Part shown: piece after piece, positions 8,526 through 32,959 of the stretch | Layout: every line of letters starts with the position of its first letter | Numbering within the stretch: the stretch's first letter is position 1 | Assembly: GCF_000024265.1 (NCBI RefSeq) | Contig: NC_013204.1 | Location: 3,461,001 to 3,525,000, forward strand | DNA: 64,000 bases | Reading direction: 5' to 3' | Source of the DNA: Eggerthella lenta DSM 2243 | GTDB taxonomy: Bacteria; Actinomycetota; Coriobacteriia; Coriobacteriales; Eggerthellaceae | Program-made: the position numbers and the translations under genes | The notes under the pieces: model-generated | What the model was told of the DNA's origin: nothing | Databases searched by the model: none | The model's input: the letters and a program-made list of their open reading frames with translations, nothing else

Positions 8526-8999
8526 CTAGCGTACCATCGCATCGCCGAGGAAGGCAATCGCATCGCGAAAAGCGCGCAAAGCGACCAGATCGTCGAGGAA
8601 GCTCACCTCGATGCGCGCGCGGCCCGCCGCCTCGTCCGTCCACTCGGTGGTGCCCACGAACACGGCATCGAGAGCGGCGCCGGCATCGGCGTAAGCGGCG
8701 GCCGAACCGGCTTCCGCGCCGTCGCCCCTGCGCACGGCCGCCCGCGTTTGAAAATCGATGACCAGGTGCTCCAACAGATGCGGCAGCGACGTGTGGTCCA
8801 TGACGGCGGCGAAAGTGTCGCCCTCGTCGTTCACGCAGGCATGGCGCGGCACGTGCGGATGGGCCGCGCGAACGCGCGCCGCAAGCTCTGGCGTCGTGCG
8901 GCGCGGGACGCCGGGCGCCAGAACCACGTCGCACACCACGCGGTCGGCGCGCACCGTGAGCCGCTCGATGACAAGCGGGGCTGTGCCCTGCGCGCTCAC
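8526..8999 (-). CDS. Small conserved protein with cyanophycin-synthetase N-terminal-like motifs
   Basis: The 157-aa soluble protein contains TSLPHLLEHLVIDFQ near residue 70 and GRARIEVSFLDDLVALRAF near 130. Both resemble the N-terminal domain of cyanophycin synthetase (H..EH...ELQ followed by a VV.EY-type strand and A...A..L), without the ATP-grasp or Mur-ligase parts. The ATG overlaps the stop of the upstream membrane gene by 4 bp (ATGA), so the two are translationally coupled. The ATP-grasp Ddl-like gene follows after 34 bp. The association of a stand-alone CphA-front-like domain with an ATP-grasp ligase hints that they act together, but this is inference. The family match is by eye and needs a profile search. 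Confidence 0.45.
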   Translation of the reverse strand: MSAQGTAPLVIERLTVRADRVVCDVVLAPGVPRRTTPELAARVRAAHPHVPRHACVNDEGDTFAAVMDHTSLPHLLEHLVIDFQTRAAVRRGDGAEAGSAAAYADAGAALDAVFVGTTEWTDEAAGRARIEVSFLDDLVALRAFRDAIAFLGDAMVR

Positions 9000-10063
9000 G
9001 CGGGCAGGTCGCTCACATCGAACACGCCGCGCGTGCCGGATGCGGCAGCATCGTCGTTCTTGTCGACGGCGTCGGAGGCGCTGCCGCCTTCGTCTGCGGC
9101 TTCACTTGCAGAGGCGTCTTCCGGCCCAGAAGCGGAATCGGATTCCGGCTTCTGCCGATCGCCCGGGTCGGGCTCGGGCGCAGCCTCCGGCTCGGGTTCC
9201 GCCGCAGGCTCGGGCTCAGGCTCAGGCGCCACCGGCTCGCCCCTCTGCGGCGTAGCCTCCGCATCGTGCGACAGGCGGTCGAGCACCGTGTATCCAGCTC
9301 CCGACGGAGGTTCCTCCTGCGGCTGGCCCTGAATCGCGCGCACGAGCTGGTCGAACTGCCAGGCGATGTCGTCCGCCAGCGTAGAGAGCCATGTGTACCC
9401 GCTTCCATCGGAAATCACCAGCTGAGAGCGGTCGAGCGAGAAACGATAGCGGCCGGAGCCCTCCATGTTCCCGAACGTGTACGAGATGGTCTTCGCGTCC
9501 GTGTCCAGCTTGTACGACCAGCTCACATCTTCGGTCAGCTTGATAGTTTCGCCGTCGATGACCACGACGGCCGTGGTGCCGTGAGTTTGCCATTCGCCCT
9601 GGAACTCGGCTGCATCGTCGTAGCGCAGCCAACGGTCCCACGAGAACCCGCCCACGATCAGCAGGACGACCAGCAGCACCGAGCCGGCCACAACAAGCGG
9701 CCAGCGCTTTTTGCGCGGCTTCGCTTCCGCACGCTCGCGCCGACGCTTCCCGCGCTCGGCCTCGGTCGACGCTTCGGCCCCATCGTCTTTCGCAGCGTCA
9801 TCGACGATTGCCGCCGCGTCCTCCTTCAACCTGGCGGCCGCCTTCGCCCTGACCTTTGCAGCGCGCGACGTCTGCTCGAGGGGCGTCTGCCCCTCATTCT
9901 CCTCAACGTGAGGCGTCCCGGCCGCTCGCGGCTTCGGTTTCGCAGGCGGCACGTCGGTGCGCTTCCGCGGCGCGACGCGGCCGGACGCCCCTGGCTTCGA
10001 GGCGTCCGTCGCGGGTGCGGCAGCGGTATTCGGTTTGCTGGTTCGTTTACGCTTCGTTGCCAC
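8996..10063 (-). CDS. Single-pass membrane protein with acidic C-terminal tail, unknown function
   Basis: The 355-aa protein has a basic Lys/Arg/Pro-rich cytoplasmic N-terminus of about 130 residues and one transmembrane helix (WPLVVAGSVLLVVLLIVGGF). An extracellular domain of about 120 residues follows (from WLRYDDAAEFQGEWQTHG to LVISDGSGYTWLSTLADDIAWQFD), which resembles lipocalin-like beta-rich domains of secreted proteins. It ends in a Glu/Pro-repeat and acidic disordered tail (PEPEPEPAAEPEPEA). No catalytic motif was recognised. It overlaps the next gene by 4 bp and lies 42 bp downstream of serS. Probably an envelope protein. Confidence 0.75.
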   Translation of the reverse strand: MATKRKRTSKPNTAAAPATDASKPGASGRVAPRKRTDVPPAKPKPRAAGTPHVEENEGQTPLEQTSRAAKVRAKAAARLKEDAAAIVDDAAKDDGAEASTEAERGKRRRERAEAKPRKKRWPLVVAGSVLLVVLLIVGGFSWDRWLRYDDAAEFQGEWQTHGTTAVVVIDGETIKLTEDVSWSYKLDTDAKTISYTFGNMEGSGRYRFSLDRSQLVISDGSGYTWLSTLADDIAWQFDQLVRAIQGQPQEEPPSGAGYTVLDRLSHDAEATPQRGEPVAPEPEPEPAAEPEPEAAPEPDPGDRQKPESDSASGPEDASASEAADEGGSASDAVDKNDDAAASGTRGVFDVSDLPA

Positions 10064-11510: not shown

Positions 11511-14237
11511 TTATCCTTCATAGCGCTTTCGCACGTACTTGATGAGGGTGGCCAGCACGCGGCGCATGTCGATGGGCTTCGACAGATGCGCGTTCATGCC
11601 GCTGGCCAACGAGGCGCTCACGTCTTCGGCGAAGGCGTTGGCCGACATCGCGATGATGGGCACGGCATCCGCATCTTCGCGATCGAGCTCGCGGATGCAC
11701 CGCGTGGCCTCGTAGCCGTTCATGTTGGGCATCTGCACATCCATGAGAACCGCGTCGAAGTAGCCTATCTTCGACGCCTCGAACATGACGCACGCCTCGG
11801 CTCCGTCCCCCGCTCGCTCCACTACCAGCCCCGCTTCCGCCAGCAGTTCGCAGGCTATCTCGGCGTTGAGGTCGTTGTCTTCGGCCAGCAGAACGCGCAG
11901 CCCCTCGAACTCGGTGCGGTCGAGCGCACGCGGCGCGCCCGGCATAGGGGCTTCGTAAGCCGAAACGGGACGGCTCGCCAGCCGATCGCGCGCGCCGAGG
12001 GATCGCAGCGCCGCCGCGCTCGCAGCATCGAGTTCGAGGGGCTGCGCATCGTCCGCCTCGGCGCCCTCGCCCTCCTCGAACACGATGCGCTCCGCCTCTA
12101 ATGCGATACGCAGGTTGAACGTCACCGTGAACGTAGTGCCCTGCCCTTTCGTCGACTCGACGGCGATATCGCCCGCCATCATGGTGACGATGTTCTTCAC
12201 GATGGGCATGCCGAGGCCCGTGCCCTGCTCGCGCGAGCGTCCCTCCATGCTGAACGGCTCGAAAATATGCTCCTTGAACTCCTCTGACATGCCTATGCCG
12301 TTGTCGGATACCGTGAACTTCACCTGGCGATACCCCATGGCGGCACCCTTCGCCACCGTGGTCTCGAACCGAACGCAGCCGCCGCAGGGCGTGTACTTCA
12401 CGGCATTCGTCAACAAGTTCAGCAACAGTTGCTTGATGCGCCGCGCATCGCCCACGAACACGGCATCGGCGCATGGCGGAGTTGTCACGACGAATTCCTG
12501 GGCGCGCTGTTCGCACTGCACGCGAACGGCGGATGCCACGTGCGACAGCACGGCGCTGAGACGGAAAGGCTCGCTGGCCAGGGTCATCTTGCCGTTCTCG
12601 ATTTTCGAGATGTCCAGCACGTCGTTGATCAGCCCGAGCAGATGGTCAGATGCGTCTCCTATCTTTTTCAGCGTCTCGGCAACTTTCTCGCGATCGTCCG
12701 GATTGCTCCGCGCAAGCTGCAGCGTTCCCAGAATCACGTTCATAGGCGTGCGGATCTCGTGGCTCATGCGCGAGAGGAACTCGGACTTTGCAGCATTCGC
12801 CGCCTCGGCAACGTCCATCGCATCCTTCATGGACAATTGGATCTCCTTGTCGGCCGTCACGTCGCGCATGACCACGAGCAGCTGCGGCTTATCTTCGAAC
12901 GTCAGCCGCTTGACCGAGTAAGAAGCCCAGCATTCTTTGCCGGTCTGCTTGCTGCGGAACGAGAACTCCCCTTGCTCGAAGCCCTTCGTCTCGTCCTTCC
13001 TAATGCGATCGAACAGAGCCACGCCCTCGGGAGAAAGCCCTATGGTGGCCGCCAACCGCTCGTTTTGCAGAAAGGCGTCAAGGCGATAGCCGATGATGCG
13101 TTCGGCCTTCGCCACAATGGGAGTGACCTTGCCGTCGGTGGGCGAATAGAGGTTCACCGCCATATCGATGCTGTCGGACAGCGCCTCGTACAACTGGCCG
13201 AGCATGGCGACGTTCTGTTCGCGCAGGCGGCGGCGGTACGCGCCGAACACCAACAGCGCCACCACCACAAGGCAGGCGAAGATGATGGCGAACACCGCTT
13301 CGAACGTGGTGGTGACCACGGCAGCTTCGGCACGCACGTTCTCGACGGGCACCACGTTGCACACGTACCAATACCCGTTGTCGACCGGCGCGACGCACAC
13401 ATAACTGGATTTGCCGTCTACCGTGGCCGTGAGCAGCCCCGTCTGCTTGTTCGCCACAACGTCGCGCAGCGTGGAAAGGTCGCTCCGCGAGCGCGACTGC
13501 ATGAACTGCAAGGCAGCTTCGGTTGAGACCGCGGCATCGGTGTTCGAGGCCGGCTCGCTGTACTGAGACGCCCGGTCAAGGAAGTCGTACAGCGACGTGC
13601 CGATGAACACCGGCGTCTTGGTTTCGCCCGTGGGAGGCACCAGCACCTCGCCGGTGGAACCCTCGAACAACATGAAGTAGCCGCGGCCGTCGAACATATC
13701 CAGCTGACGGGACATAGAGAACAAGCTTAACGGCACCTGCACGTACAGGGCTCCGACTTGCTGCCCATCGATATAAAGCGGCGTTTGGGCGAGACGCACG
13801 CGGGCGCCCGCCTCGTTGGCGAACGTGGCAGAGTACGAACTGCGACCCTCGGACAAAGCCGTTTCGGGCTGAGCCAGCTCGTCGACGGAAAATGCGGAGC
13901 CATCCGCGCGAACGCCTCGACCGTCCATCCCGGCAAACGTCGCATTCGCAAAGCCGTGGTGCTCCTGGAAGCTGCTGAGAGCCGGCGCAACCAACGCAGG
14001 ATCGGTAGTCTGCACGGTAAACGCGCCGATGGCGTTCTGCGACATGTACATGCGGTCGGTTACGTTGCTGGCGGATTGCTCGGTGAACGTGACCACCTGC
14101 TGCTCGGCGCTCTGATTGAGCTTCTTGTCGATAAAAGACGTTAATCCGAGCACAGCAGAAACAATCGCCGCCACAATGGCGACGATTGCGATTGATGCCG
14201 TTATGCGTCGTTTGCGTTTGCGCTTGTCTTTGCCCAT
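11511..14237 (-). CDS. Membrane hybrid sensor histidine kinase
   Basis: The 908-aa protein has a TM helix at about residues 12-34, an extracytoplasmic sensor domain of about 260 residues (dCache/Cache-like, containing RMYMSQNAIGAF and YWYVCNVVPVENV), and a second TM helix near 305-328. A PAS domain follows (about 345-460). The HisKA domain has MSHEIRTPMN (phospho-accepting His near 493), and the HATPase has NLLTNAVKYT, SDNGIGMSE and GTGLGMPIVK. A C-terminal receiver domain carries VLMDVQMPNMNG (Asp near 832) and the conserved Lys in HLSKPID. It thus senses an external signal and relays phosphate internally. No partner HPt or response regulator is adjacent. The start is the only plausible ATG, with a weak GAAGAAGGG at about 17 nt. 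Confidence 0.92.
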   Translation of the reverse strand: MGKDKRKRKRRITASIAIVAIVAAIVSAVLGLTSFIDKKLNQSAEQQVVTFTEQSASNVTDRMYMSQNAIGAFTVQTTDPALVAPALSSFQEHHGFANATFAGMDGRGVRADGSAFSVDELAQPETALSEGRSSYSATFANEAGARVRLAQTPLYIDGQQVGALYVQVPLSLFSMSRQLDMFDGRGYFMLFEGSTGEVLVPPTGETKTPVFIGTSLYDFLDRASQYSEPASNTDAAVSTEAALQFMQSRSRSDLSTLRDVVANKQTGLLTATVDGKSSYVCVAPVDNGYWYVCNVVPVENVRAEAAVVTTTFEAVFAIIFACLVVVALLVFGAYRRRLREQNVAMLGQLYEALSDSIDMAVNLYSPTDGKVTPIVAKAERIIGYRLDAFLQNERLAATIGLSPEGVALFDRIRKDETKGFEQGEFSFRSKQTGKECWASYSVKRLTFEDKPQLLVVMRDVTADKEIQLSMKDAMDVAEAANAAKSEFLSRMSHEIRTPMNVILGTLQLARSNPDDREKVAETLKKIGDASDHLLGLINDVLDISKIENGKMTLASEPFRLSAVLSHVASAVRVQCEQRAQEFVVTTPPCADAVFVGDARRIKQLLLNLLTNAVKYTPCGGCVRFETTVAKGAAMGYRQVKFTVSDNGIGMSEEFKEHIFEPFSMEGRSREQGTGLGMPIVKNIVTMMAGDIAVESTKGQGTTFTVTFNLRIALEAERIVFEEGEGAEADDAQPLELDAASAAALRSLGARDRLASRPVSAYEAPMPGAPRALDRTEFEGLRVLLAEDNDLNAEIACELLAEAGLVVERAGDGAEACVMFEASKIGYFDAVLMDVQMPNMNGYEATRCIRELDREDADAVPIIAMSANAFAEDVSASLASGMNAHLSKPIDMRRVLATLIKYVRKRYEG

Positions 14238-14796: not shown

Positions 14797-15678
14797 ATGA
14801 ACGAAGCCGAAACGCATCTCTACCAGCGCGAAGGAGCGTACATCCCCCGCGTCGCCGCCGTGCATGATCTGTGCGGCTACGGCAAGTGCTCGCTGGGAGT
14901 TGCCATTCCCGTGCTGTCCGCCGCCGGCTGCGACGTATGCCCCGTGCCGACGGGCTTGTTCTCGTCGCACACCGCCTTCCCCGGCTGGTACATGCACGAC
15001 ACCACCGAGATCCTAGCCGACTACCTGAACGCATGGAAGGGCATCGGCGTGGAGATAGATGCCGTGTACTCCGGTTTCTTGGGCGCACCCGAGCAGGTGG
15101 ATCGCATTCGCGATCTGTACGCTATGTATCCGAACGCTTTGCGCGTGGTAGATCCCGTGATGGCCGACCACGGCAAGGTCTACCCCACGTATACGCCCGA
15201 GCTGTGCTCCGCCATGGCCGAGCTGGCTTGCGGCGCCGACATCCTCACACCGAACCTCACCGAAGCCGCCATCATCCTGGGCGAGCCCATCGGCGAAGAT
15301 TGGGGCGGCACCGACATCTCCGACGAAGAAGCGCACCGCCTGGTAGATGCCCTCGTGGCGAAGGGAGCGAAGCACGTGGTGCTCAAGGGCATCCAGCGCG
15401 AGGGCGAGTCCTGCATCCGCAACTTCGTGGGCGGCAAGGACTGCGAGGCGTTCGAAGCGCATAACGAATACCTGCCCTACATGTTGCACGGCACGGGCGA
15501 CTTGTACGCGTCATGCCTGATGGCCGCCGTGATGGCCGGTCGCTCGCTGCAGGAGGCCGTCGCGTTCGCAGGCGACTTCGTGCACGACGCCATGCTGGTG
15601 AGCGCCGAACAGCCCGACTTCAAAGACCGCGGCGTCAGCTTCGAGCCGCTGCTGGGCAAGGTGTGCGAGCTGCTGTAG
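14797..15678 (+). CDS. Pyridoxamine kinase (PdxY/PfkB-like)
   Basis: The 293-aa ribokinase-like enzyme phosphorylates pyridoxal/pyridoxamine in B6 salvage. AAVHDLCGYGKCSLGVAIPV near residue 15 is the substrate-binding start typical of the PdxK/PdxY group. VVDPVMADHGKVY near 120, DILTPNLTEA near 147 and the anion-hole/catalytic HGTGDLYAS near 230 are all present. The start ATG at 14797 follows GGAAAGGAAG; an in-frame ATG nine codons upstream has no such site. The gene stands alone between terminators. Confidence 0.88.
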   Translation: MNEAETHLYQREGAYIPRVAAVHDLCGYGKCSLGVAIPVLSAAGCDVCPVPTGLFSSHTAFPGWYMHDTTEILADYLNAWKGIGVEIDAVYSGFLGAPEQVDRIRDLYAMYPNALRVVDPVMADHGKVYPTYTPELCSAMAELACGADILTPNLTEAAIILGEPIGEDWGGTDISDEEAHRLVDALVAKGAKHVVLKGIQREGESCIRNFVGGKDCEAFEAHNEYLPYMLHGTGDLYASCLMAAVMAGRSLQEAVAFAGDFVHDAMLVSAEQPDFKDRGVSFEPLLGKVCELL

Positions 15679-19992: not shown

Positions 19993-20823
19993 TTACACGT
20001 TCTTTGAATTTTTCTGAAAGCGTCGCAGCGCCGACCAAGCCGCGGGAACCAGAAGCGCCGTCGAGACAGCAAGCAGAACGAAGTCGATCGGGTCGCCGGT
20101 AACGTAGGTTTGCTGCAGGTTTCCCGCCAGCAGCTGCGGGCCCGCGTACAGGAAGTTGAACGCGGCGTGCACGGCGACGAGCGTCCACAAGTTGCGCGTT
20201 CCGAAGTACATCGCTGCCATGAACAGGCCGAACAAAGCGGCTTGCACGGGTTTGCACGCCGTTTGCGCAACCGCGACGAAATCGGCGGCCTGAACGGCCG
20301 AGGCAGCCTCGCCCAGCGACACGTGCAGCGCGCCGAACAGCACGGCCGACACGAGGGCCGCTCGCAGCATGCCGCGTCGGCCTCCTCCCAACGCCGGAGC
20401 GAACGCATCGAGCGCCAGCACCCGGAAGACGCCCTCCTCGAACACAGCGGTCAGGAGGCAAAGCGCGACCACTTGCATCACGTGCAACGGGGAGGCGTCC
20501 AAAGCGGCCCCTTGCGGTTGCACGACCAGCGACGCGAGGCCCACAGCCAAACCCACGGCCAGCACGTACAAGGCCCACGCGAGCAAACCGCGCCCGTCGC
20601 AAAGGCGCGGCGCGCGCAAAGCCCGCGGCCGCGATGCCGCCACAGCCGCAAGCGCGACCGCAGCTAGCGCCGCGCCCTGCGCGAGCGACCCGGCGAGGGT
20701 GTCGCCGGGGACCAGCGAGAAGCAGCACGCCGTTGCCACCAACGCCGCCACGAACACGGCGGCGCGATGGTTGCGCGCGCAACCGCCGTCCTCAAGCCCC
20801 ATCGTGGAATTCGCGCGCGTCAC
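19993..20823 (-). CDS. CPBP-family intramembrane metalloprotease
   Basis: The 276-aa protein has about seven to eight hydrophobic segments. The CPBP (CAAX protease and bacteriocin-processing) motifs are present: FEEGVFRVLA (EExxxR) near residue 144, FGALHVSLGE (FxxxH) near 178, and HAAFNFLYAG (HxxxN/D) near 232. These glutamate and histidine residues form the metal site in Rce1-type proteases. Bacterial members process or confer immunity to peptides, or have unknown targets. A second CPBP gene lies at 30441. The start may be this ATG or an internal one (MGLEDGG); neither has a clear ribosome site. Divergent from the TraX gene. Confidence 0.88.
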   Translation of the reverse strand: MTRANSTMGLEDGGCARNHRAAVFVAALVATACCFSLVPGDTLAGSLAQGAALAAVALAAVAASRPRALRAPRLCDGRGLLAWALYVLAVGLAVGLASLVVQPQGAALDASPLHVMQVVALCLLTAVFEEGVFRVLALDAFAPALGGGRRGMLRAALVSAVLFGALHVSLGEAASAVQAADFVAVAQTACKPVQAALFGLFMAAMYFGTRNLWTLVAVHAAFNFLYAGPQLLAGNLQQTYVTGDPIDFVLLAVSTALLVPAAWSALRRFQKNSKNV

Positions 20824-27417: not shown

Positions 27418-28692
27418 ATGGACGTTAGCCAAATCGTTGCCGTTGCTGTGTTCGTCGTGGTCATGATCACCATCATGACCGAGAAGCTGCACCGGTCGCT
27501 CGCGGCCATCACGGGCGCGATGATCGTGTTGGCCCTGCATGTCATGCCGTTCGACGCGGCCATGGAGCACATCGACTTCAATACCCTGGGCGTGCTGCTG
27601 GGCATGATGCTGTTCGTGTCGGTAGTGAAGCTGTCGGGTGTGTTCGAGTTCCTTGCCATCAAGTGCGCACGACTTGCAAAAGGCGACCCTTGGAAGATCA
27701 TGCTACTGTTCGTGCTGCTCACGGCCGTACTTTCAGCATTCCTGGACAACGTGACCACCGTGCTGCTCATCGGGCCCATGACGCTGACCGTATGCAAACT
27801 GCTCGACGTCAACCCCATCCCGTTCTTCATGACCGAGATACTCGCGTCGAACATCGGAGGCACCGCAACGCTCATCGGCGATCCGCCCAACATCATGATC
27901 GGCTCGGCAGCCGGATACTCGTTCTTCGACTTCATCCTGTACGATGCGCCCGCCGTGGCGATTATCCTCGTCGCGATCCTCGGCGTGTTCTACGCGCTAT
28001 ACGGCCGCAAGATGAACGTGGACGACGAGCACAAGGCCCGCATCATGGAGCTGGACGAGCACGCGCAGATCAAGAACCGGCGGCTGCTGAAGCAAAGCGT
28101 GGTGATGACCGCCCTGGTGGTGGTCGGGTTCATGGCGCATGGCGCGTTGGGGCTGGAATCGTGCATTATCGCGCTAGGCGCCGCGGGCATCATCATGCTG
28201 ATCTCGGGCGAAAGCATCGAGGAAGCGCTGTCGAACGTGGAGTGGACCACGCTGTCGTTCTTCGCCGGCCTGTTCGTCATCGTGGGCGCGCTGGCCGAGA
28301 CCGGCGTCATCGGCATGCTGGCGAACGGGTTGATCGACGCAACCGGCGGCAACGTGTTCATCACCATGCTGGTGCTGCTCATCGGCTCGGCCGTGATCTC
28401 CAGCTTCCTGGACAACATCCCGTTCGTGGCCACGATGATCCCCATCCTGCTGGCCATGGAATCCACCGGCATGGACGTCACGCCGCTGTGGTGGGCCGTG
28501 TCGCTGGGCGCCTGCCTGGGCGGCAACGGCACGCTCATCGGCGCCAGCGCCAACGTGGTGCTGTCCGACATCAGCAAGAAGCACGGGTACGAGATCACGT
28601 TCGCGAAGTTCTTCAAGACCGGCTTCCCCATCATGCTGCTCACCATTTTGATAGCCGGCGTATACCTGGTGGTGCGCTTCCCTCCAGCGTAA
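27418..28692 (+). CDS. ArsB/NhaD-type SLC13-like ion transporter
   Basis: The 424-aa protein has about 11 to 12 membrane helices. It matches the ion-transporter (IT) superfamily branch containing ArsB, NhaD and the P protein. Two inverted repeats are visible, each with an N-x-T/S-rich hairpin: FLDNVTTVLLIGPMT near residue 103 with GGTATLIGDPPNIMIG near 145, and FLDNIPFVATMIP near 335 with GGNGTLIGASANVVLS near 365. The paired DN-(V/I) and G-TLIG motifs are characteristic. The substrate (arsenite, Na+/H+ or a carboxylate) is not determined. No ars genes are nearby. ATG 27418 lies in a good context after a GGCGG-type site. Confidence 0.88.
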   Translation: MDVSQIVAVAVFVVVMITIMTEKLHRSLAAITGAMIVLALHVMPFDAAMEHIDFNTLGVLLGMMLFVSVVKLSGVFEFLAIKCARLAKGDPWKIMLLFVLLTAVLSAFLDNVTTVLLIGPMTLTVCKLLDVNPIPFFMTEILASNIGGTATLIGDPPNIMIGSAAGYSFFDFILYDAPAVAIILVAILGVFYALYGRKMNVDDEHKARIMELDEHAQIKNRRLLKQSVVMTALVVVGFMAHGALGLESCIIALGAAGIIMLISGESIEEALSNVEWTTLSFFAGLFVIVGALAETGVIGMLANGLIDATGGNVFITMLVLLIGSAVISSFLDNIPFVATMIPILLAMESTGMDVTPLWWAVSLGACLGGNGTLIGASANVVLSDISKKHGYEITFAKFFKTGFPIMLLTILIAGVYLVVRFPPA

Positions 28693-28744
28693 GCGCACGG
28701 GCGCGAGGCGCAACCGACACGAGCGAAAAACTCGCCTCAACCCC

Positions 28745-28773
28745 TTGCAGGAGCGCGGGGGTTCGGATATACT
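28745..28773 (+). promoter_or_regulatory. Promoter of tRNA-Thr
   Basis: TTGCAG at 28745-28750 and TATACT at 28768-28773 are 17 bp apart and 31 bp upstream of the tRNA. Confidence 0.65.
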
Positions 28774-28803
28774 GCTTACTCGCGCTTCGCTTAGAAGCCG
28801 TAT

Positions 28804-28879
28804 GCCAACGTGGCTCAGCTGGTAGAGCAACGCACTCGTAATGCGTAGGTCAGCGGTTCGAATCCGCTCGTTGGCTCCA
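28804..28879 (+). tRNA. tRNA-Thr (anticodon CGT)
   Basis: A 76-nt cloverleaf with encoded CCA. The acceptor GCCAACG pairs with CGTTGGC, the D arm is GCTCAGCTGGTAGAGC, the anticodon loop is CTCGTAA, and the T arm is AGCGGTTCGAATCCGCT. CGT reads ACG codons. Confidence 0.97.
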
Positions 28880-28889
28880 GAAAAAGAAT

Positions 28890-28926
28890 GCAGGTCAGGC
28901 GATGAGAGTTGCCTGACCTGCTTTTG
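28890..28926 (+). terminator. Intrinsic terminator of tRNA-Thr
   Basis: GCAGGTCAGGC (28890-28900) and GCCTGACCTGC (28911-28921) form an 11-bp stem followed by TTTTG. Confidence 0.88.
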
Positions 28927-28969
28927 TTTCCGGAGTTTTTCTTTCAGCGCCCTGGAAGGAGATGAGCTC

Positions 28970-29800
28970 ATGTCCAAAGCGAACGGCAGCGAGGCGCTCG
29001 TCGCTGAACAGCTCTCCAAAGATCGCGCCGTCATCGAGCTATGCAGACGATCGCTCGTCAACCATTTCGTAGTGCGGGACATGGATGCCGCCTTAGCTTA
29101 TATGGCCGACGATGTTGAATGGCTGGGTCCGTTCAGCTGTCAAACCGCCTCGGACAAGAAGACCATGGAAGACATCCTACGACCCGAGTACAGCATACGG
29201 CTCGCATTGGCAGACGAGCGTTGGCGCGCCCGTAAACGCGCCAACACCTGGATCGTCTCGGCACGCTATACGCTGCTCGTCGTGTCGGCCGGCGGAGAGC
29301 GCAGCATGCCGTTCAAGCAACATGCTACCTACGTATGGGCCCCTACGCCGGACGGACCTCGCATCGTGCATCTGCACGTGTCGAACGCCACCGATGCGAA
29401 CCCGCTCTTGCCTTCGCTCGATCCTGGCCAGAACGCCATCGAATTCCTGTACGAGCACTTCGATGCCCAGGGATCCGGCGCCGGCAAGCTCAGCTTCCGA
29501 GACACGGACGGAGACGTTCACGTTCTGCATCCCAACGAACTGTACGCTATAGAATCCGACGGTCCACGCTGCGTCATCAGGCATGCGCACGGAAAGTTCG
29601 CGGTGCGAGGCGCCTTGGCAAGCCTGGAAAAGGAACTGCCTGCAAAGGACTTCCTTCGCTTGCACCGCAGTTGTCTGGTGCATCGCGGGCGCATCGCCAG
29701 CATCGAGGATCATCAGGCGCTGCTCGACGACGGCTCCTCCTACCCCATCGCGGAGCGACGCAGCCGGGAGATCAAGCAATCGTTCGAACTGACCTTGTAG
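28970..29800 (+). CDS. LytTR-type transcriptional regulator with SnoaL/NTF2-like N-terminal domain
   Basis: The 276-aa protein starts at ATG 28970 behind GAAGGAG. Residues about 10-150 form a SnoaL/NTF2-like fold (VIELCRRSLVNHFVVRDMDA, MADDVEWLGPF) that may bind a small ligand in place of a receiver domain. Residues about 180-276 are a LytTR DNA-binding domain (VHVLHPNELYAIESDG, LPAKDFLRLHRSCLVHRGRI, SYPIAERRSREIKQSF). LytTR proteins bind paired direct repeats about 21 bp apart upstream of peptide, bacteriocin and virulence promoters. Exactly such repeats lie in front of the next two genes. No histidine kinase is nearby, so this is a one-component regulator. Its own promoter lacks an obvious copy of the repeat. 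Confidence 0.88.
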   Translation: MSKANGSEALVAEQLSKDRAVIELCRRSLVNHFVVRDMDAALAYMADDVEWLGPFSCQTASDKKTMEDILRPEYSIRLALADERWRARKRANTWIVSARYTLLVVSAGGERSMPFKQHATYVWAPTPDGPRIVHLHVSNATDANPLLPSLDPGQNAIEFLYEHFDAQGSGAGKLSFRDTDGDVHVLHPNELYAIESDGPRCVIRHAHGKFAVRGALASLEKELPAKDFLRLHRSCLVHRGRIASIEDHQALLDDGSSYPIAERRSREIKQSFELTL

Positions 29801-29862
29801 CACACCTCGTCGCGCGACGCCGACCTCTCCCGCGCAACATGCCAGAGCAATCTGCCGACCGC

Positions 29863-29896
29863 TGCGTTCGTTGCGTTTGAACGGGCATTCGTTCTC
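29863..29896 (+). promoter_or_regulatory. Tandem LytTR-type repeat upstream of the peptide gene, with -10 box at 29927-29932
   Basis: GTTCGTT at 29866 and ATTCGTT at 29887 are direct repeats 21 bp apart (two helical turns). The sequence between them (CGTTTGAACGGGC) is shared with the second site at 30326-30359. TATAAT lies at 29927-29932, about 40 bp after the second repeat, and no good -35 is present, as expected for an activator-dependent promoter. Confidence 0.7.
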
Positions 29897-30000
29897 AGGG
29901 GATCGCTCTTTGCCGGCGGTTCGATCTATAATCCAGTGGTATATGGGGATTTCGGAATAGGAATGTTCCGCAATGCGATCGGAAGGGCGGCGATTCGATC

Positions 30001-30231
30001 ATGATAGACGACGAAAAGCTCGCCGCCTGTTTTTCCGACAAAGGTATGGAGCTTGACGATGACGACCTCGACCAGGCATCGGGCGGTATTAGCTGCCCCG
30101 ACCAGATCGTCTTCTTCTGCACCAGATGCCATGAAGCGAAAACGGTCACGAAAACCAGCAGCGCGCTGATATGCCCCGATTGCGGTACGCCGTTCGGAGC
30201 CTCAACTTCTCCGAATCCCGATCCAACGTAG
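30001..30231 (+). CDS. 76-aa Cys-rich peptide with double-glycine-type leader
   Basis: The acidic first 30 residues end in ELDDDDLDQASGG, which has the hallmark of double-glycine leaders of class II bacteriocins and Nif11-type precursors (L-x-D/E-E/D-L-x-x-V/A-x-G-G). The remaining 46 residues are a Cys-rich core with two CxxC pairs (FFCTRCHE and LICPDCGTP) plus one Cys right after the GG, ending in a Ser/Pro tail. The core could equally be a zinc ribbon. GGAAGGGCGG precedes the ATG. The gene lies between a LytTR regulator and a CPBP protease and has a LytTR-type site upstream. No C39-peptidase ABC exporter or modification enzyme is in the window. Precursor-peptide status is inference from the leader, size and context. 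Confidence 0.7.
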   Translation: MIDDEKLAACFSDKGMELDDDDLDQASGGISCPDQIVFFCTRCHEAKTVTKTSSALICPDCGTPFGASTSPNPDPT

Positions 30232-30325
30232 GGAGAACCAAGGGACGGTACCGGCAATGGCAAGAGCGACGGGCGTTGAGAAGCCGTATGACAAGCTCTT
30301 CCACCGATGGGACTCTTCGAAAGAG

Positions 30326-30359
30326 GTCGTTCGTTTCGTTTGAAGGGGCGTTCGTTCCG
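30326..30359 (+). promoter_or_regulatory. Tandem LytTR-type repeat upstream of the CPBP gene, with -10 box at 30389-30394
   Basis: GTTCGTT at 30329 and again at 30350 are 21 bp apart, with CGTTTGAAGGGGC between them, closely matching the site at 29863-29896. TACAAT at 30389-30394 is 39 bp after the second repeat, the same layout as at the peptide promoter. Confidence 0.7.
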
Positions 30360-30440
30360 CGCATCTGAAAATCGTCCTGCTACCCGGTTACAATCTCGCA
30401 TGCTTCATTATTTCGACCCTGCCAATGAAAGAGGAACCGC

Positions 30441-31293
30441 ATGTCGACGATACGCACGTTTGCACGATCCCATCCGCTGCTCGTAACCGCCGTCGGGCTC
30501 GCCATCGGACTGGCCGTGATCTGGTTCGTGCCATCCGACGGGTCTTTGGCGAACATGATGTTCATTCGCCTGGGATTGACCATCGTCATGTTCGCCATCA
30601 TGGCCGTCGCGGCAGGATGCAACATCATCGTGCCCAACGCCAAAAGCATCGGCCTCTCGTTCAAGAAGTCTATCTACCCGTTGGTCGTAGCGCTGGTCAT
30701 GGGCGTGTTCGTTCTGCTCGGCACCGCAATGAAAAACGAGGGGATGGTGTCCGACTGGCCCTTGCAGCTGGCGCTGGTCATCATGCTCTGCCTGCTTGTG
30801 GGCACGTTCGAAGAGGGCTTGTTCCGCGGCATCGTTTTCAGCGGGCTGCTGGCTCGTTTCGGCGAGACGCGTCGAGGTCTGATCGGAGCCGTGATAGTCT
30901 CATCGCTGATCTTCGGCTTCGTCCATGTGACGCCGTCCATCATGAACGGCCAAGTGGTCACCGGTTTGGACATGGCCCAAGCGGCGCTCAAAACCCTGCA
31001 AGCCGGCATCCTGGGCGCGTTTCTGGCCGCCCTGTTCCTGAAAACGCGTAACATCTGGGGCATCGCGCTGGTTCATGGCCTCAACGACCTTTTCGTGATG
31101 CTGGGCGACGCGCTTTTTTTCCGGCACCACGTCCACCACGTACGTCAACAACGACGCGATGATGGCCAGCGCATCAGTCGTCATGTACGGGGTGTTCTTC
31201 CTGCTGTACATCCCCATCATCGTCTCGACGGTGCGCATGCTCAAGCAAGTCGAAGTCCCCTGCAAAGGCCCCTTTGCCGATAGGTGGTCTTGA
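30441..31293 (+). CDS. CPBP intramembrane protease with frameshift in a T7 run
   Basis: ATG 30441 follows AGAGGAA. About eight membrane helices are seen, with CPBP motifs FEEGLFRGIV (EExxxR) near residue 125, FGFVHVTPS near 155, and HGLNDLFVM (HxxxN/D) near 212. At a run of seven T (31114-31120) the open frame changes to an implausible His/Arg-rich tail ending at 31283. Removing one T gives a normal continuation (MYGVFFLLYIPIIVSTVRML, then VPCKGPFADRWS) ending at 31293, which is plainly the original membrane C-terminus. All catalytic motifs precede the break. The protein may process the adjacent peptide leader or give immunity. The frameshift may be true variation, slippage or a sequencing error. 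Confidence 0.85.
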
Positions 31294-31307
31294 GCGACTT
31301 TGAATCC

Positions 31308-31332
31308 GCGCGAAGCCCCAACGGCTTCGCGC
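31308..31332 (+). terminator. Terminator-like hairpin after CPBP gene
   Basis: GCGCGAAGCC (31308-31317) and GGCTTCGCGC (31323-31332) pair around a 5-nt loop. Followed by a T-rich stretch (TATCTTTACT). Confidence 0.65.
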
Positions 31333-31520
31333 GCTATCTTTACTCGCGAAAACGACCGCCTTTCCACCTAAGGTTCACGCTCTTTCTCGCGTTGCTGCGC
31401 TAACTCGGATCACCGTCCTTCTTCGTCCTCCTTACGCTTCCGCTAACGGAATAAGCGCCGAGCGTTACCGGTGGTACTATCGCCGGACGACCCGACCGAA
31501 GGCAACCGGAGGAGCGCGCC

Positions 31521-32363
31521 ATGAAACCTTACTACGAAGGCTGGTACATGAAACAGCAGCAAGGCGAAGACGTGCTGGCCGTGATACCGGGGCGCGCGCA
31601 GGACTCCGCATTCATCCAGGTGGTCTCCAACCGCGGCTCGCGCTTCTTGCCGTACCCCCTGGAGGCGTTCGACCGCACCGACGGCAGCATGCGAATCGGC
31701 GACAGCTTGTTCACGCCGTACGGAATGCAGCTGCGCATCGACGAACCGGATTTCGAGTTGGTAGGAAGCGTTCGCTACGATCATCTGCTGCCGCTGCGCT
31801 CGGACATCATGGGGCCGTTCGCCTACGTGCCCATGGAAACGAAGCATACCGTGTTCAGCATGCGGCACCAGGTGACCGGATCGATCCGCCTCAACGGTGA
31901 CGCGCTAGATATTCGCAACGGCATCGGCTATATGGAAGGCGACCGCGGCCACACGTTTCCCCGCAGCTATTTCTGGATGCAGTGCCTCGACGTTCGACAA
32001 GACGCCTCCGTCATGCTGGCCATCGCCGAAATACCGCTGGGTCCGATCCGCTTCACCGGCTGTATCGGCATAGTCGCGCTCGGCGAGACGGAATACCGCT
32101 TCGCCACGTACCGGGGCGTGCGCATCGTGGAGCATACGCCCACGATGGCGGAAGTGCGGCAGGGCGATATGAGCCTGCGGGTGGAGGTGCTTGACGATCG
32201 CGGGCACAAGCTGCAAGCACCCGCCCAGGGTCTGATGGATCGCACGATTCACGAAAGCCCTTCCGTACCCGCGCGTATCCGCTTCGTCAAGGGCGGCGAA
32301 CCTCTTTTGGACGAGATGGAGTCCCAAACAAGCTACGAATTCGTTTCCCCCGCTTCGGCGTAG
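31521..32363 (+). CDS. Tocopherol-cyclase-like protein
   Basis: The 280-aa protein shows the tocopherol cyclase family pattern: YYEGWYMKQQ at the N-terminus (YFEGWYFK), FSMRHQVTGSIRLNG, and GIGYMEGDRGHTFPRSYFWMQ near residue 133 (GYMEKDWG..FP..Y.W.Q). Plant members cyclise prenylated quinols. Bacterial homologs in anaerobes are short and of unknown substrate, so enzymatic function here is not claimed. It is a soluble beta-rich fold without signal peptide. ATG 31521 is preceded by GGAGGAGCGCGCC. No quinone-biosynthesis genes are adjacent. Confidence 0.85.
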   Translation: MKPYYEGWYMKQQQGEDVLAVIPGRAQDSAFIQVVSNRGSRFLPYPLEAFDRTDGSMRIGDSLFTPYGMQLRIDEPDFELVGSVRYDHLLPLRSDIMGPFAYVPMETKHTVFSMRHQVTGSIRLNGDALDIRNGIGYMEGDRGHTFPRSYFWMQCLDVRQDASVMLAIAEIPLGPIRFTGCIGIVALGETEYRFATYRGVRIVEHTPTMAEVRQGDMSLRVEVLDDRGHKLQAPAQGLMDRTIHESPSVPARIRFVKGGEPLLDEMESQTSYEFVSPASA

Positions 32364-32473
32364 GGACCGGACGCCCCCTTTGCGTGCCTCGCGGAGCCGA
32401 TCCCCGCCGCGTTCGCCCGCACGACGCTGGTATACTGGGCGTATCGAGCAACCTTCGCGAGAGAGGATGCACC

Positions 32474-32959
32474 ATGCTGTACGACAATATTATGATCCCC
32501 TACGACGGATCGGCTTCGTCCAAAGCAGCCCTTGCGGAAGCGGTGCGGTTCGCGAAGGACGACCCCGGACTGACCCTTCGCATCGTCCAGATCATTGACA
32601 CCGATCAGCTTGCCATCGACAAGCTGGAAGCCGAAGGGCGCGACGAACAGACCGTCGCCTCGTCGGCGATGCTCCAGAAAACCTACGAGGAGGTCACCGA
32701 GGAAGCCAGCAAGGCGCTGCATCGCGAAATAGACCCGCTGCTGAGCGGCCTCATGAACAAAGTGTACATCGAGCTTTTGCAGGAAACGCAGCCGGGCGGG
32801 CAAATCGTGACGTACGCCATCGACAACTTGTGCGACCTCATCGTCATGGGCTCGCGGGGTCTGGGCGCGTTGCGCGGCATTTTGGGCAGCGTCAGCAGCT
32901 ACGTGCTGCGCAACGCCGACGTTCCGGTGCTCATCGTCAAGGAAGGCACGAACGAGTAG
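32474..32959 (+). CDS. Universal stress protein (UspA family)
   Basis: The 161-aa cytoplasmic protein starts at ATG 32474 behind GAGAGGAT. Residues 1-12 (MLYDNIMIPYDG) give the nucleotide-binding first strand with the conserved Asp. The C-terminal stretch LIVMGSRGLGALRGILGSVS is the ATP-binding G2xG9xG(S/T) motif, so this is likely an ATP-binding Usp. Single-domain, normal length. A TATACT sequence 35 bp upstream of the start suggests its own promoter. A partial REP sequence follows the stop at 32967. Confidence 0.95.
   Translation: MLYDNIMIPYDGSASSKAALAEAVRFAKDDPGLTLRIVQIIDTDQLAIDKLEAEGRDEQTVASSAMLQKTYEEVTEEASKALHREIDPLLSGLMNKVYIELLQETQPGGQIVTYAIDNLCDLIVMGSRGLGALRGILGSVSSYVLRNADVPVLIVKEGTNE

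Follow-up and report, generated by a model that had tools for sequence, protein, structure and literature searches.

The plantaricin PlnC/D system is a LytTR-regulated bacteriocin system in which LytTR-type direct repeats precede the peptide gene, and in the LytTR Regulatory Systems (LRS) one operon encodes both the regulator and its membrane-protein partner. The accessible text of Zou et al. (2018; PMC6193735) describes the LytTR regulators of the LRS with repeats that are mostly 12 bp apart and lie roughly 10 bp upstream of the −35 element. In the available portion of another source, SilX is held to process a signal peptide and not to confer immunity (PMC9298176). The accessible part of Haft, Basu and Mitchell (2010; PMC2887384) names Nif11-derived precursors, the N11Ps, beside an NHLM transport cluster in Eggerthella lenta DSM 2243, and such precursors have thus been known in this species since 2010. 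In the open-licence PMC literature we found no paper combining LytTR with SnoaL, LytTR with NHLP, or Nif11 with a zinc ribbon.

The DNA analysed here, hereafter the window, is a stretch of 64,000 nucleotides of the E. lenta DSM 2243 genome (G000:C1:3461001–3525000; all genome-wide counts refer to G000, the single contig C1 of 3,632,260 bp). A sequence-only reading had noticed a regulator, a double-glycine peptide, a CPBP gene and two direct repeats, and this observation is confirmed; the three genes are open reading frames on the plus strand (28970–29800, 30001–30231, and from 30441). That reading had also taken the genes for a self-contained system, a view that finds no support here: the six genes scanned around the locus (27418–32959) include no peptide exporter or modification enzyme, the only PF03412 match of the genome lies about 67 kb off, and the repeat is common to the NHLM cluster there. 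Comparison of the sequences gives good support to the peptide and CPBP genes being members of a LytTR regulon that includes this distant cluster. What is new, within a known kind of system, is an outlying short-leader peptide of the NHLM regulon, apparently under NTF2-LytTR control.

Results

Three Genes of the Locus

The first gene (28970–29800, plus strand) encodes reg1, a 276-aa one-component regulator with an NTF2/SnoaL-like front and a C-terminal LytTR DNA-binding domain, an architecture proposed earlier and borne out by profile matches and a family alignment. At sequence level the LytTR domain is certain (PF04397, E 2e-14, 54 bits, cut-off 22.6); the front matches DUF4440/SnoaL_3 at E 2e-4/8e-4, slightly under the Pfam cut-offs. 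Across the aligned family (26 members including reg1), LytTR is present in all 26 and SnoaL_3 (E ≤ 0.01) in 16, with a best value of 4e-9, and the NTF2/SnoaL-like front is by this alignment a family feature although it falls below cut-off in reg1. LytTR two-component control of bacteriocins relies on a regulator with a receiver domain and a cognate histidine kinase. No receiver domain was matched in the profile scan of reg1 or in the 26-member alignment. A receiver-type two-component reading and a single-operon LRS reading of the locus were both considered and dropped. NTF2-LytTR proteins occur in several families of Coriobacteriia. The AlphaFold2 prediction of the regulator (three sequences) was too weak for use (mean pLDDT 36.7), as was that of the peptide alone (65.4).

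The second gene (30001–30231, plus strand), assigned from the open reading frame, profiles and orthologue comparison, encodes a peptide of 76 aa with a 29-aa acidic leader ending in GG (ELDDDDLDQASGG) and a core carrying the pairs CTRC and CPDC. The double-glycine leader and zinc-ribbon-like core seen in the sequence-only reading both stand, with zinc-ribbon matches that are weak and below cut-off (best A2L_zn_ribbon, E 3.5e-4, 20.6 bits versus 22.9). The leader has an acidic E-L-x4-L-x4-GG-like motif, as in published NHLM leader forms, and the N-terminus shares its acidic Leu-GG form with precursors of the distant cluster; none of the NHLM/Nif11 leader models, TIGR03798 included, matches the window peptide at E ≤ 1. 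An ad hoc leader motif, devised after the peptide had been seen, selects one ORF in the 64-kb window versus none in 10 block-shuffled windows.

A search of 396 Coriobacteriia genomes returned six peptide matches at E ≤ 0.001, two of them strong (E about 1e-48; G000 itself and G103) and four weak (E about 2–3e-4). The weak matches, which align chiefly over the leader or over the CxxC pairs, were left out of the orthologue count, and G103 holds the one clear orthologue among the 396 class genomes. Its peptide is identical to the window peptide at 41 of 75 positions in an ungapped alignment (dN 0.31, dS 1.25), and the low dN relative to dS suggests constraint; the GG and both CxxC pairs are retained, and invariant columns fall in leader and core alike. 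Peptide and repeat lie in G103 at the same tRNA-Thr as in the window, on the opposite strand. The reg1 orthologue of G103 is unlinked, about 300 kb from the peptide orthologue, no close CPBP orthologue was found in that genome, and PF03412 has no match there. Of the expectation that peptide homologues would keep the leader and the setting, the part on the leader, and with it the repeat, held in G103; the neighbours did not, since neither regulator nor CPBP gene adjoins. Outside these genomes, plasmids gave three weak matches, all in helicases, and the genome contigs set and viral contigs none. A set collected with a CxxC query, and hence biased, holds eight GG-leader peptides that carry two CxxC pairs; they come from seven genomes, and five of the six genomes tested have NHLM ABC1 above cut-off. 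A Nif11-type leader with two CxxC pairs was also noticed at L199:1474–1719 (minus strand), in a genome of another family with several regulator-profile matches.

CPBP (Rce1-like) proteases have EExxxR, FxxxH and HxxxN/D motifs and an intact membrane domain as their hallmark. The third gene, a table-11 ORF at 30441–31283 (plus strand) backed by profile and orthologues, matches the Rce1-like profile at E 5e-18, and its EEGLFRG, FGFVH and HGLND motifs all lie upstream of a frame break at a T7 run (31114–31120). Profile and motifs agree with the protease assignment of the sequence-only reading, in a frame that is broken after them; the extent given there does not hold, as the ORF ends at 31283 and position 31293 is reached in the other frame. 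Orthologues in Paraeggerthella (G010; 58% identical) and G002 continue in that other frame to a common C-terminus, and the break may reflect a sequencing error (homopolymer miscall), phase variation or decay. No regulator, peptide or repeat adjoins the G002 orthologue. The window contains a second CPBP gene (20158–20778, minus strand), 33% identical to the gene at 30441, near which there is no repeat above the scan threshold.

Direct Repeats Common to the Locus and a Distant NHLM Cluster

Pattern and matrix scans place direct repeats of period 21 upstream of the peptide (29866–29893, plus strand; GTTCGTT-N14-ATTCGTT) and the CPBP gene (30329–30356, plus strand; GTTCGTT-N14-GTTCGTT), 107 and 84 bp before the respective start codons, in agreement with the earlier claim of LytTR-type repeats before both genes. 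A 27-bp pattern (≤3 mismatches) has three matches in the whole of G000 (control 0), of which two, the window repeats, are matches by construction because the pattern was built from these and the G103 site; the third, at 3426228, lies upstream of reg2. The G103 repeat before the peptide orthologue has one mismatch to this pattern, and a second G103 match, at 11997, has three. The relaxed form GTTCGTT-N14-GTTCGTT (≤1 mismatch), set after some cluster sites had been seen, gives 11 matches in G000 versus 0 in the control: two in the locus, six (five distinct sites) at 3412950–3430675, and three elsewhere (615724, 2831799 and 3486357, the last within a window gene). Eight of the 11 (seven distinct sites) are thus in the locus or the cluster 60–78 kb off. 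When GG was added to the relaxed form, after the sites had been seen and all known sites had GG, all seven matches at ≤1 mismatch fell in the locus or cluster; at ≤3 mismatches this form was discarded as noise (59 versus 38 in the control). Elsewhere the relaxed repeat is closer to control, for example 8 versus 4 in G103 and 4 versus 4 in G030, and in the other three Eggerthella genomes it is at or near control (2, 2 and 4 versus 2, 1 and 2). Scored with a matrix from seven cluster sites, the two window sites outrank every other position of the window, both strands taken together (33.8 and 29.3; next 20.0), and with the near-identical reg2 site removed they are still the first two of the 5000 best (25.6 and 25.2; next 19.6); because window-derived patterns had served to find the cluster sites, this ranking is a consistency check and no independent discovery.

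The cluster (L035, L151) lies at about 3.41–3.43 Mb of the contig. Its exporters match TIGR03796 (940.7 bits, cut-off 853.3) and TIGR03797 (720 bits, cut-off 709.4) some 67 kb from the locus and it holds the sole C39 peptidase (PF03412) match of the genome, so a C39 exporter, which the sequence-only reading had thought worth seeking, is found in the NHLM/Nif11 cluster and not in the locus. Also present are several precursors with Nif11-like leaders (TIGR03798 matches two of the four scanned), a radical SAM protein that numerous radical SAM/SPASM maturase models match below cut-off, a SpoIIE-phosphatase/HATPase module (the SpoIIE/RsbU-type operon), and reg2, a second NTF2-LytTR regulator and paralogue of reg1 (26–27% identical).

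In E. lenta the repeat was recorded at nine sites, with two mismatches at 3426161 and 3427286. These sites precede the window peptide, the CPBP gene, reg2, the precursors L035:10557 and 6069, the short peptides L035:4993, L035:7409 and L151:8691, and the SpoIIE operon. Strict GG peptides stand behind four of the nine and AG variants behind two, and one weaker repeat (L035:7287, two mismatches) revealed the overlooked short-leader GG peptide ORF L035:7409. No convincing GG peptide was found downstream of the repeats at 615724, 1446910, 1839676 and 2831799, and no repeat above the scan threshold precedes the GG peptides L151:13465 and 15009. Four short GG/AG-leader peptides of the cluster (L035:7409–7684; L151:13465–13683, 15009–15269 and 8691–8882), three with a CxxC pair, are possibly overlooked precursors. 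A 92-aa protein with no Pfam or NCBIfam match recurs by the SpoIIE/HATPase module, by the peptide of G103 and close to the CPBP gene of Paraeggerthella (L151:5467–5745, L025:9600–9878 and L090:3434–3802).

Promoter Spacing and Two Repeat Subtypes

Published LytTR sites have repeats of 9–11 nt, 11–13 nt apart and often 10 bp before the −35 element, from which about 33 bp is expected between repeat and −10 element. A spacing scan places TATAAT (29927–29932, plus strand) 33 bp after the peptide repeat and TACAAT (30389–30394, plus strand) 32 bp after the CPBP repeat, and the window repeats thus have the LytTR-type promoter form in both their period of 21 and their −10-like spacing, with binding as a prediction. 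Among 14 sites, a −10-like hexamer (at least 4/6, last T) follows the repeat at 31–33 bp in nine and at 42–43 bp in three and is absent in two; the 31–33 bp interval was picked after the sites had been seen, and a random position has such a hexamer there with a frequency of 2.3%.

Seventeen sites from five genomes split into subtypes A and B, which were defined after the sites had been seen; the 14-site spacing set lacks three of them, and several sites of L088, L089 and L090 with 3–4 mismatches are in neither set. Subtype A comprises the window peptide and CPBP repeats, the reg2 promoter, the G103 peptide and five of six sites adjoining reg1 orthologues, the sixth of which, from Enteroscipio, groups with subtype B. 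Subtype B comprises Nif11-type precursors, short peptides, the SpoIIE operon and one Paraeggerthella precursor. Among 330 splits of 11 core sites, one does as well as A/B. Paraeggerthella, which holds a reg2 remnant (54–58% identical), is the sole other examined genome with a B site at a precursor, and the A/B grouping together with this co-occurrence suggests the idea of a cascade.

Neighbourhoods in Other Genomes

Twenty regulator neighbourhoods were fetched, mostly of top-ranked matches and some ended by contig edges. Papain-like or subtilase proteins are present in five, with a weak subtilase match in a sixth (L102), and the closest reg1 orthologues adjoin large, apparently secreted proteins of these kinds. 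Clusters with radical SAM and PqqD were found in two of the 20 with tblastn probes; a further neighbourhood has a lone radical SAM match (L093) and another a GG peptide (L105). An NTF2-LytTR gene adjoins an NHLM ABC exporter pair in two genomes of one other genus (G023 and G076), loci chosen for showing both regulator and NHLM matches, and in a third genome of that genus (G077) a match to the LytTR part alone, in a 126-aa frame, lies at the NHLM pair. Of 138 family genomes, 26 have NHLM ABC1 above cut-off, and at least four of these 26 (G000, G023, G076 and G077) are among the regulator matches listed. In Paraeggerthella the reg1 (63%) and CPBP orthologues are about 6.5 kb apart, and a span of about 8 kb holds both together with the reg2 remnant and a precursor similar to L035:6069 that is frameshifted and has a repeat. 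Neither peptide nor repeat adjoins the G003 regulator homologue, and the co-occurrence envisaged for the three families was not found, as regulator, peptide and CPBP stand together in no other genome examined.

Two side observations concern these neighbourhoods. NTF2-LytTR genes lie within radical SAM/PqqD/ABC clusters of other Coriobacteriia (L097 and L104), where short candidate precursors are present. Adjoining the closest reg1 orthologue (76%) is a gene for a papain/lectin-like/5′-nucleotidase fusion protein (L086:5910–9428, minus strand), with a repeat of its own (9542–9569, minus strand) and a −10 element at 43 bp; the protein is possibly a second kind of target.

Discussion

On balance we favour, with some reserve, a reading in which the NHLM/Nif11-leader RiPP cluster forms the bulk of a LytTR regulon and the locus is its detached outpost, with a regulatory cascade and export in trans. 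This reading starts from the genes, the repeats and their restriction within the genome, the promoter spacing, the exporter and precursor families, and the conservation of the peptide with its repeat in a second genus. We infer that reg1 probably binds subtype A repeats and activates the peptide, CPBP and reg2 promoters; reg2 would bind the subtype B repeats before the Nif11-type precursors, the short-leader peptides and the SpoIIE/RsbU-type operon. The C39 peptidase-ABC exporter of the cluster would remove the acidic leader of the peptide by cleavage behind the GG, and a short Cys4, possibly metal-binding product would be secreted in trans, with the CPBP protein as a co-regulated membrane protease serving in processing or self-protection. 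Several observations speak against the outpost model: G103 keeps peptide and repeat in a genome with no PF03412 match, linked regulator or close CPBP orthologue; NHLM/Nif11 leader models fail to match the peptide; RiPP genes are clear in two of the 20 regulator neighbourhoods (tblastn probes); the subtypes are post hoc, and the Enteroscipio site groups with B despite its reg1 orthologue; three of the 11 repeat matches lie elsewhere; a repeat above the scan threshold is missing before the GG peptides L151:13465 and 15009; and the CPBP frame is broken in the assembly.

The retention of the peptide in G103 (dN 0.31, dS 1.25) without a PF03412 match in that genome would also fit a zinc-ribbon mini-protein that stays inside the cell with its acidic N-terminus uncleaved and that the LytTR regulon merely includes, and the sub-cut-off A2L_zn_ribbon match (E 3.5e-4) points the same way. 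We regard this as fairly unlikely, as the leader is conserved together with the core, the N-terminus and the cluster precursors are alike in their acidic Leu-GG form, and NHLM ABC1 accompanies the GG-leader two-CxxC peptides in five of six genomes tested (eight peptides in seven genomes, from the CxxC-query set). The T7 break, the high-scoring presence of the peptide in just two of 396 class genomes, and the degraded reg2 and frameshifted precursor of Paraeggerthella could instead mean that peptide and CPBP are remnants of a decaying, non-functional outpost. Near-consensus repeats and −10 elements, a peptide coding sequence that is intact and apparently constrained, and CPBP motifs that all precede a break where a homopolymer miscall is possible make such decay distinctly unlikely.

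We judge it very unlikely that the locus is a bacteriocin or signal-peptide system complete in itself and under LytTR control, with the CPBP protein for immunity or processing. The genes are indeed adjacent, with matching repeats before peptide and CPBP, the Paraeggerthella regulator and CPBP orthologues lie about 6.5 kb apart, and, according to the available portion of the source, the CAAX/CPBP protein SilX adjoins a bacteriocin locus (PMC9298176). Against this, the locus genes scanned include no exporter, the three genes are never together in the other genomes examined, and the repeat is common to the NHLM cluster.

The outpost reading could be carried further, to a proposal that is rather doubtful as it stands: a two-step NTF2-LytTR cascade (reg1 on A, reg2 on B) would wire a dispersed RiPP regulon in which a remote NHLM exporter matures and secretes a zinc-ribbon peptide that has few modifications or none, and GG-leader zinc-ribbon peptides would make up a class of NHLM cargo that recurs in Coriobacteriia and has so far gone undescribed. 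The sequence-defined regulon offers a cheap handle on how an NHLM cluster is switched on in a common gut bacterium, and it points to peptides that lie too far from the exporter for cluster mining to pick up. The NTF2-LytTR proteins of Coriobacteriia gain a candidate promoter element and target genes.

Like plantaricin, the locus has LytTR-type repeats before the peptide gene. With Sil/SilX, as presented in the accessible part of that work (PMC9298176), it has in common a CPBP/CAAX protease gene. It differs from these LytTR-regulated bacteriocin systems in that its regulator has an NTF2-like front with no receiver match, and no exporter is found among the adjoining genes scanned. The LRS, in the available text (PMC6193735), likewise have a LytTR regulator and spaced repeats; in the window, the regulator front is NTF2-like and the next gene encodes a peptide. 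The closest likeness to the NHLM/N11P systems, as set out in the accessible part of Haft, Basu and Mitchell (2010; PMC2887384), is the acidic double-glycine leader in a genome that also holds TIGR03796/TIGR03797 exporters and Nif11-leader precursors. Compared with that description, the leader of the window peptide is far shorter and lacks a TIGR03798 match, its core is of CxxC-CxxC form, and the peptide lies about 67 kb from the exporter, to which a common promoter element ties it.
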